A stretch of DNA of 64,000 bases from NCBI GenBank assembly GCA_027486655.1, contig JAIXOR010000001.1:124001-188000 (forward strand). The letters run 5' to 3'. Within the stretch, counting starts at the first letter, position 1; the number at the start of each line of letters is the position of its first letter. Shown piece after piece: positions 26,064-28,342 of the stretch. Position numbers and translations under genes: made by a program. The notes beneath the pieces were generated by a model. The model saw nothing but the letters and a program-made list of their open reading frames with translations, searched no databases and was not told where the DNA came from. The DNA comes from Verrucomicrobiaceae bacterium (GTDB lineage Bacteria > Verrucomicrobiota > Verrucomicrobiia > Verrucomicrobiales > Akkermansiaceae).

Positions 26064-26336
26064 ATGCCACGCTCTCTCAAGAAAGGCCCTTTCGTCGATC
26101 AAAAGCTCCTCGCCAAGATCGACGCCGTTGCCGAAGCCGGATCCGACCGCAAGCCCATCAAAACCTGGAGCCGCAAGTCGATGATCACTCCGGACTTCGT
26201 CGGACACAACTTCGCCGTCCACAATGGCAAAACCTTCGTTCCCGTCTATGTCACGGAGAACATGGTCGGCCACAAACTCGGTGAATTCGCGCCGACCCGC
26301 ATTTTCCGCCAGCACGGCGGCATCGGCAAGAAGTAA
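26064..26336 (+). CDS. rpsS: 30S ribosomal protein S19
   Basis: 90 residues ([56 protein letters not shown]). A 30S head protein. In other bacteria rplV follows directly; here a coiled-coil gene starts 21 bases downstream. Confidence 0.97.
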
Positions 26337-26357
26337 GCCACAGACCGTCATCCGCTC

Positions 26358-27077
26358 ATGCGTTCCACCATCCATTCCAAAACCCTCGCCGCCGCCCTCG
26401 GGCTGCTCGCGGGGCTTGGAATCTGCGTGGCGCAGGTGCCGGATGCCGAACAACTTCAGCAGGCCCTCGTCGACCTCCAGGAACAGAATCAAGCCCTCCA
26501 GCGGAGCCTCGCCGAGGCCAACCGTGGCGAGAAACAGGCTTCCGAGCAGCTCGCCCAAGTTCGCGAGCGTCTCGAAGCCCTCGGCAAGAATCTGCTCGAT
26601 GGAGGGGACGATCGCCTCGTGCAGGCTGCCGCGGATCTCCAGCTCGCCAACGAACGGATTTCCGAGCTCGAGGGCTCGGTCACCCGTCTCGCCTCGGCGG
26701 TCAGCGACTATCTCCGCCAGGCCGTGGTTTCCGATCCGGATGCCCGGCTCCGTGTCGAAACTTCGCTAAGAGAGCTTGACGCGGTTCTCGGACTGCGGCA
26801 GAAGCCCCGCCCCGATATCCGCTCCGGGTCCCTGCAACAGGCTCGCATCGTCAGCCTCGATCAGGAAAGCGGTATGCTGGTTCTCAACATTGGCGAAAGC
26901 CAGGGAGCCCGCATCGGCATGACCTTCCAACTCTCCCGCGGGCAGCAGCCTTACGGAAAAGCCATTCTCGCAGATGTCCGCAAGGGCGTCAGCGGACTTT
27001 TTGTCGAATCGCTCGACAATTCCGCGGACTCCCCGCGACCTGGCGATCTCGCCATTCTTGAAACACAACCTGAGTAA
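26358..27077 (+). CDS. Exported coiled-coil protein embedded in the S10 operon
   Basis: 239 residues, not a ribosomal protein. Residues 1-25 form a Sec signal (LAAALGLLAGLGICVA then Q). About 28-110 are a heptad-rich coiled coil (EQLQQALVDLQEQNQALQRS, ASEQLAQVRERLEALGKNLL, ERISELEGSVTRLASAVSDY). About 155-239 look like a small beta domain (ARIVSLDQESGMLVLNIGES, GARIGMTFQLSRGQQPYGKA) of the kind seen at the end of other exported coiled-coil proteins. It lies 21 bases after rpsS and 23 before rplV on the same strand, with no terminator or promoter visible, so it should be made with the ribosome. The role is unknown; envelope or periplasmic location is inferred from the signal. Confidence 0.88.
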   Translation: MRSTIHSKTLAAALGLLAGLGICVAQVPDAEQLQQALVDLQEQNQALQRSLAEANRGEKQASEQLAQVRERLEALGKNLLDGGDDRLVQAAADLQLANERISELEGSVTRLASAVSDYLRQAVVSDPDARLRVETSLRELDAVLGLRQKPRPDIRSGSLQQARIVSLDQESGMLVLNIGESQGARIGMTFQLSRGQQPYGKAILADVRKGVSGLFVESLDNSADSPRPGDLAILETQPE

Positions 27078-27100
27078 TCAACCTTCACGCCCGACGCTTT

Positions 27101-27526
27101 ATGGAAGTCAAAAGCACCAGTAAATTCGTACGTCTCTCGCCCAAGAAGGCGCGTGACGTCGCCCGCGAGATCCAAGGCCTGCCCGTCTCCAGCGCCCTCG
27201 ACATCCTCAATTTCACGCCCAAGAAGGCCGCCCAGCTGATCGGCAAAACCCTGAAGACCGCCATCGCGGACGCCGACAACAACTTCGGCCTCGACACCGG
27301 CACCCTGGTCATCAAGGAAGCCGTCATTGGCGCAGCCCCCACGCTCCGCCGCTTCAAGCCGCGCGCCAAGGGCTCCGCTGGCCCGATCATCCGCCGCACC
27401 AGCCACATCTCCATCACCCTCGTGGGATCCGCCCCCGAGAAGAAAAAGAAGGTCGCCCGCAAGACGACCTCCAAGAAAACCGACGAAGCCGCCGCCGCTC
27501 CCGCCGCGACGGAGGAACAAGCCTGA
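27101..27526 (+). CDS. rplV: 50S ribosomal protein L22
   Basis: 141 residues (FVRLSPKKARDVAREIQGLP; RFKPRAKGSAGPIIRRTSHI). Its beta hairpin lines the exit tunnel and is a site of macrolide resistance mutations. The last ~28 residues (KKKKVARKTTSKKTDEAAAA) are an extra Lys/Ala tail beyond the usual ~110-residue length. It follows the inserted coiled-coil gene. Confidence 0.95.
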   Translation: MEVKSTSKFVRLSPKKARDVAREIQGLPVSSALDILNFTPKKAAQLIGKTLKTAIADADNNFGLDTGTLVIKEAVIGAAPTLRRFKPRAKGSAGPIIRRTSHISITLVGSAPEKKKKVARKTTSKKTDEAAAAPAATEEQA

Positions 27527-28296: not shown

Positions 28297-28342
28297 TTTC
28301 ATTCATCATCCAACACCAACATTTTCCAAGGAGGACTGAGCC

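Follow-up and report, generated by a model that had tools for sequence, protein, structure and literature searches.

Why a gene for an exported-looking protein should stand inside the S10 operon, whose gene order ranks with the best conserved in bacteria, is the question raised by this locus. The window, meaning the whole 64,000-nucleotide stretch of DNA that was analysed, carries the gene (here called X) on the same strand as its neighbours rpsS and rplV, and the remaining S10-operon genes around it encode ribosomal proteins. The identities of rplB, rpsS and rplV rest on Pfam matches; fusA, rpsJ, rplC, rplD and rplW on the upstream side, and rpsC and rplP on the downstream side, were named from their translations. 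The open reading frame of X starts with ATG and stops with TAA. The features of the locus, in window coordinates, were as follows.

26064..26336, + strand: rpsS (S19), the upstream neighbour of X; Pfam PF00203, E 1.2e-37.
26337..26357, no strand: spacer of 21 bases from rpsS to X, read from the sequence; no Shine-Dalgarno-like motif by eye.
26358..27077, + strand: X, the inserted gene, encoding an exported-looking coiled-coil and barrel protein of 239 aa; evidence from the open reading frame, homologues in place and a dN/dS of 0.22.
26358..26435, + strand: putative N-terminal export signal of X, residues 1-26; evidence from the sequence and a hydropathy scan; the fastest-evolving part.
26445..26786, + strand: long helices of X, residues 30-125 and 127-143, a probable coiled coil; evidence from the AlphaFold2 model and invariant residues.
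26835..27065, + strand: predicted C-terminal six-stranded barrel of X, residues 160-236, with a FlgT_C-like fold; evidence from AlphaFold2 on the domain alone and from fold matches.
27078..27100, no strand: spacer of 23 bases from X to rplV, read from the sequence.
27101..27526, + strand: rplV (L22), the fixed neighbour of X on its downstream side; Pfam PF00237, E 8.6e-34, and adjacency.

That X fills the rpsS-rplV gap and is set off from its neighbours by 21 and 23 bases, as claimed in the initial annotation, was borne out by the open reading frame and by the Pfam matches of the neighbours. When the rpsS-rplV gap was scanned with consensus sequences, no promoter-like or terminator-like site was found on the + strand. 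Since X runs in the same direction as the rest of the S10 operon, has short spacers on both sides and lies in a gap that held no such match, X is likely transcribed as one message with rpsS and rplV, as far as sequence features can tell. A clear Shine-Dalgarno-like AAGGAGGA was seen upstream of rplP (window 28321-28342); by eye, the starts of the genes from rpsJ to rpsC and that of X were without such a clear motif. The codon adaptation index of X was 0.51 compared with 0.59-0.81 in 17 ribosomal and fusA genes under leave-one-out scoring, a value below every one of the genes compared, and translation of X may be weaker than that of the genes next to it.

A significant X homologue was detected in 56 of the 59 genomes searched, the window's own counted. 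The three genomes without a homologue had completeness values of 59-84%; among the good genomes, 42 of 42 carried X. When same-genus loci were examined, X stood between rpsS and rplV in 34 of 34 (again counting the window's own). Five other families of the order supplied 22 loci; 21 held both rpsS and rplV, with the gap filled by an ORF of 235-310 aa, and the 22nd was cut by a contig end and had X before rplV. One scan of named genomes, with labels such as Akkermansiaceae, Luteolibacter, Prosthecobacter and Verrucomicrobiales, gave the order rpsS-X-rplV in 57 of the 57 named loci found, and rplB and rpsC were also in view in 54. The median dN/dS of X was 0.22 (57 sequences, 758 pairs of moderate divergence); in the same named loci the medians were 0.05 (rpsS), 0.10 (rplV), 0.08 (rpsC) and 0.11 (rplB). 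Along the X gene, pN/pS was 0.61 in the signal region, 0.33 in the helix and 0.29 in the barrel. X is under purifying selection where tested.

Beyond the order, the phylum sample was examined at 60 loci in 59 genomes, which were picked from ranked lists and not at random. Both rpsS and rplV were present in 49 of the 60 loci; the gap between them was at least 350 nt in 29 and smaller, without X, in the other 20. Of the 29 gaps of at least 350 nt, 28 contained an ORF that shares the C-terminal domain of X, the exception being L089. This locus, from family f18, had a 552-nt rpsS-rplV gap with no barrel-profile match. In L109 and L112 the gaps were 206 and 178 nt and each held one 52-codon ORF with no barrel match. 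An order-only profile of 63 rows, built from the window's own order to limit circularity (with its columns delimited on the joint alignment), found all 28 inserted ORFs of distant families (E 1e-28 to 3.8e-5), all 12 ORFs upstream of rplV without an adjacent rpsS, and all 11 further loci, one of which (L194) belonged to the window's own family; the remaining 25 of the 76 loci gave no match below E 0.3. Counted by hand, copies of X in the operon occurred under at least 36 of the 67 family labels used for the phylum samples, Akkermansiaceae included.

A comparison of rpsS-rplV spacing across Verrucomicrobiota, proposed in the initial annotation, shows X recurring across the phylum in 28 of the 29 longer gaps and absent from 20 of the 49 measured. 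The chance insertion that it had also envisaged, with X absent from all relatives, fails on the homologues in 56 of 59 genomes and at 57 of 57 named loci. Conservation, dN/dS and the homologues in distant families rule out X as a chance ORF or a recent insertion. Because X was missing from 20 of the 49 measured gaps, several families being without it, and short forms of the protein (see below) are without the helix, X is not indispensable: it is dispensable or replaceable in the phylum. Two results, the low codon adaptation of 0.51 and these 20 gaps, stand against a simple dosage coupling of X.

The constant parts of the X family were an N-terminal hydrophobic segment and the C-terminal barrel. 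In the hydropathy scan the segment was present in 90 of 91 X homologues, and none of six ribosomal control proteins passed; the start codon of the lone exception, L098, may be wrong. The segment would be an export signal or a membrane anchor. Invariant or nearly invariant barrel residues were G30, G34, G38, R45, R59, G80 and D81, numbered as in A4, a barrel profile of 45 rows; in the helix, E73, G76 and A90 were invariant in the 19 rows of alignment A1. The middle part of X varied, with a long helix in the window's order and shorter stretches elsewhere. In families f7, f9, f13, f14, f16 and f17 (of the same class) and in f41, the whole protein was 108-130 aa, leaving no room for a long helix. 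The conserved core of X is the barrel, and the coiled coil is dispensable. As the short forms consist of the signal and the barrel alone, the name coiled-coil protein fits the version in the window's lineage and not the family. The earlier description of a signal-peptide, coiled-coil protein stood in part: a helix and a hydrophobic N terminus were predicted, but the coiled coil proved dispensable, and both the conserved barrel and the recurrence of the insertion across the phylum had been missed. Matches of X to coiled-coil families in Pfam and NCBIfam (Phage_scaffold, DUF3450, SMC, ZapB and others) were discarded, all being below the curated cut-offs and nearly all lying within the helix.

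The AlphaFold2 model of full-length X had a 96-residue helix (residues 30-125) and a six-stranded C-terminal domain, with a mean pLDDT of 75.8 and a pTM of 0.33; the barrel modelled alone reached a pLDDT of 83.2 and a pTM of 0.72. In one fold search, the top match was a chain of the LPHT ring, 8z5n (Z 11.3, rmsd 1.9, 73 aligned), which we take to be FlgT, and the second was FlgT itself, 3w1e (Z 10.3, rmsd 2.4, 75 aligned). The same two structures led again with the barrel alone (Z 10.6 and 10.0), and they led each of three structure searches, Foldseek included. The N-terminal barrels of F1-ATPase subunits trailed FlgT by 0.4 to 1.3 Z, and the best Foldseek match, at E 1.5e-3, missed the limit of 1e-3. 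With the F1-ATPase barrels so close behind and the best Foldseek match so weak, the fold names no function; the X barrel is predicted to be FlgT_C-like by a small margin over other barrels, and function does not follow. Profile searches against solved structures gave TsaP a whole-sequence E of 2.7e-5, which is the sum of two partial stretches of which the better reached 0.052 alone, followed by a MexC-like protein (0.062), a LysM protein (0.12) and an MreC (0.38). Sub-threshold matches among the 45 barrel members were to FlgT_C in 14 (best E 2.7e-3), HutF_N in 4, HypC in 4 and MreC in 3, HutF_N and HypC being unrelated families. The sequence profiles agree weakly with a FlgT_C-like fold.

Four known systems were compared with X. 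The C-terminal domain of FlgT (PF16538, FlgT_C; 3w1e, 8z5n) is the nearest solved fold to the X barrel; however, no FlgT_C match was obtained, either with full-length X at E up to 1 or with the 90-residue domain alone at a limit of E 5. A passage of PMC9093738 associates FlgT with a periplasmic flagellar ring, the Vibrio H ring. FlgH was absent from the window's genome and present in only 30 of 288 genomes; all 31 genomes from the window's family carried X and were without FlgH. The LysM protein TsaP (PDB 3jc8) resembled X through its profile match to the barrel family, but no LysM match was found in X or in eight homologues at E up to 1. According to a passage of PMC10653833, TsaP stabilises the PilQ secretin of the type IV pilus. 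A secretin was detected in 281 of the 288 genomes, those without it being six f8 genomes and G203, and secretins are too widespread in the sample for co-occurrence to bear on a TsaP-like role. The sample gave no evidence of a link between X and secretins: the two f8 genomes measured were without X, but G203 carried X and many genomes with a secretin did not. MreC is built of a membrane segment, a coiled coil and a barrel, in that order. X has the same order of parts, and one of eight full X homologues matched MreC (PF04085) at E 0.0012, below the cut-off; however, X itself had no MreC match and the genome's own MreC, which scored above the cut-off, was encoded elsewhere (contig C40, E 1.5e-31). 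The general shape of Skp/OmpH (PF03938), an exported coiled coil with a beta body, is also shared by X, but X had no OmpH match and two OmpH proteins were encoded elsewhere in the genome. The domain searches, the genome's own MreC and OmpH proteins and the absence of FlgH led us to reject X as FlgT, MreC or Skp.

The explanation that we tentatively favour, and which we hold to be quite possible though short of probable, is that X serves, once exported, as an envelope scaffold or adaptor and is produced from a ribosomal-protein message. It would share the transcript of the S10 operon, leave the cytoplasm through Sec and oligomerise through its helix, where a helix exists, and its barrel would bind a partner in the periplasm, in the manner of FlgT and TsaP within their own machines. 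Given its place in the operon, the supply of X would follow ribosomal-protein synthesis and so the growth rate.

The association of X with rplV was examined by searching 288 genomes of the phylum with profile A4. A match at E up to 1e-3 was obtained in 208 of the 288, weaker copies elsewhere in the genome included. The best 91 of the 150 matches listed (E up to 1.3e-15) came from 91 genomes and all lay directly upstream of rplV; for 73 of them, coordinates placed rplV on the same strand within 300 nt downstream, and for the other 18 the same placement was seen when the loci were inspected (six plus twelve loci). As many as 56 of these 91 genomes had no row in the profile. X was directly upstream of rplV in all 12 loci without an adjacent rpsS (L104, L106, L113, L116, L119, L123, L129, L197 and L204-L207), none of four rpsS-side loci (L105, L107, L128 and L130) had X, and the spacers from X to rplV were mostly short. 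In G207 and G178, rpsS was found far off on the same contig, indicating that the S10 operon was broken just upstream of X.

Weaker copies matching the barrel profile were also seen outside the operon in many genomes, and judging from these matches the barrel domain seems common in Verrucomicrobiota. A tandem pair of related frames outside the operon was observed in the window's own genome (contig C32; L208, 4160-5161 and 5014-5892, - strand) and in L053-L058. These frames, found elsewhere in genomes of this order, had a membrane segment, a helix and the same kind of barrel as X. No shared gene context was found for this second set of related genes among 10 neighbour proteins at four loci. The neighbours were HemD, two radical SAM proteins, a 3-keto-disaccharide hydrolase, a beta-helix protein, a GH114 protein, an ABC transporter, a methyltransferase and two proteins without a match.

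When the 76 loci were placed in a tree based on four ribosomal proteins, X was present on both sides of the midpoint root. Equal-cost parsimony preferred X at the root by one change (11 vs 12), with one of the two root branches ambiguous; the result reversed when a loss cost twice a gain, and the 76 loci had been chosen partly for carrying X. An early origin of X is plausible. Passages of PMC8046335 report that in Gammaproteobacteria and Bacilli insertions into the S10 cluster often precede its break-up, and the loci without an adjacent rpsS fit this pattern of insertion and then break, X being kept on the rplV side. The insertions of other phyla in those passages are likewise non-ribosomal genes in a conserved cluster that is sometimes then broken up, but they differ in kind, the four consisting of tusDCB, bfd-bfr, nrdHEF and genes for amino-acid synthesis, with a putative transporter in one case (PMC8046335). 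Neither rpsS nor Verrucomicrobi occurs in the main text of that paper. A literature search, which reached few subscription papers, found no published account of an rpsS-rplV insertion in Verrucomicrobiota and no described function for an X-type protein. The insertion of X is real and old, and it is new relative to the literature searched.

The plainest alternative to an envelope scaffold supplied from the S10 message is that X is an ordinary envelope gene which was inserted early in the phylum and kept by history, its position having no regulatory meaning. The insertion and break-up described for Gammaproteobacteria and Bacilli (PMC8046335), the 12 loci with X-rplV and no adjacent rpsS, and a codon adaptation unlike that of the neighbours agree with such a history. 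However, the pairing of X with rplV outlasts both operon breaks and deep sequence divergence, suggesting that the pairing itself is selected, and we consider an explanation by history unlikely.

Ribosomal operons often hold export genes, such as secY, secE, yidC, lepB and ffh, and for this reason X could also be read as a periplasmic accessory of protein export, either a Sec translocon helper or a chaperone, for which demand would scale with translation. The predicted export signature in an S10-operon gene is consistent with this, as is the chaperone-like shape given by the helix and barrel of the AlphaFold2 model. However, two proteins of the OmpH/Skp type are already present in the genome, and the short forms of X have no room for the long helix; we judge an export accessory distinctly unlikely. 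It is very improbable that X is a secretion monitor for L22, its translation or export regulating the downstream rplV as SecM regulates SecA, since conservation lies in the folded barrel and not in an arrest-like C-terminal peptide, even though X stays with rplV in 12 of 12 loci that have no rpsS beside it, and the spacers from X to rplV are mostly short. RNAalifold gave one helix of 5 pairs at the X-rplV junction, for which the column-shuffle control was degenerate, with almost no variance.

An exported envelope scaffold or adaptor remains our preferred reading of X. In its full form, the proposal is that such a scaffold was hard-wired into ribosome synthesis at the root of the phylum or close to it, with X made from the L22 message, attached to rplV through operon breaks and supplied in step with translation capacity; we put this forward as a rather doubtful proposition. 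As a member of the S10 operon, X would provide a testable handle on how envelope growth is matched to ribosome production.
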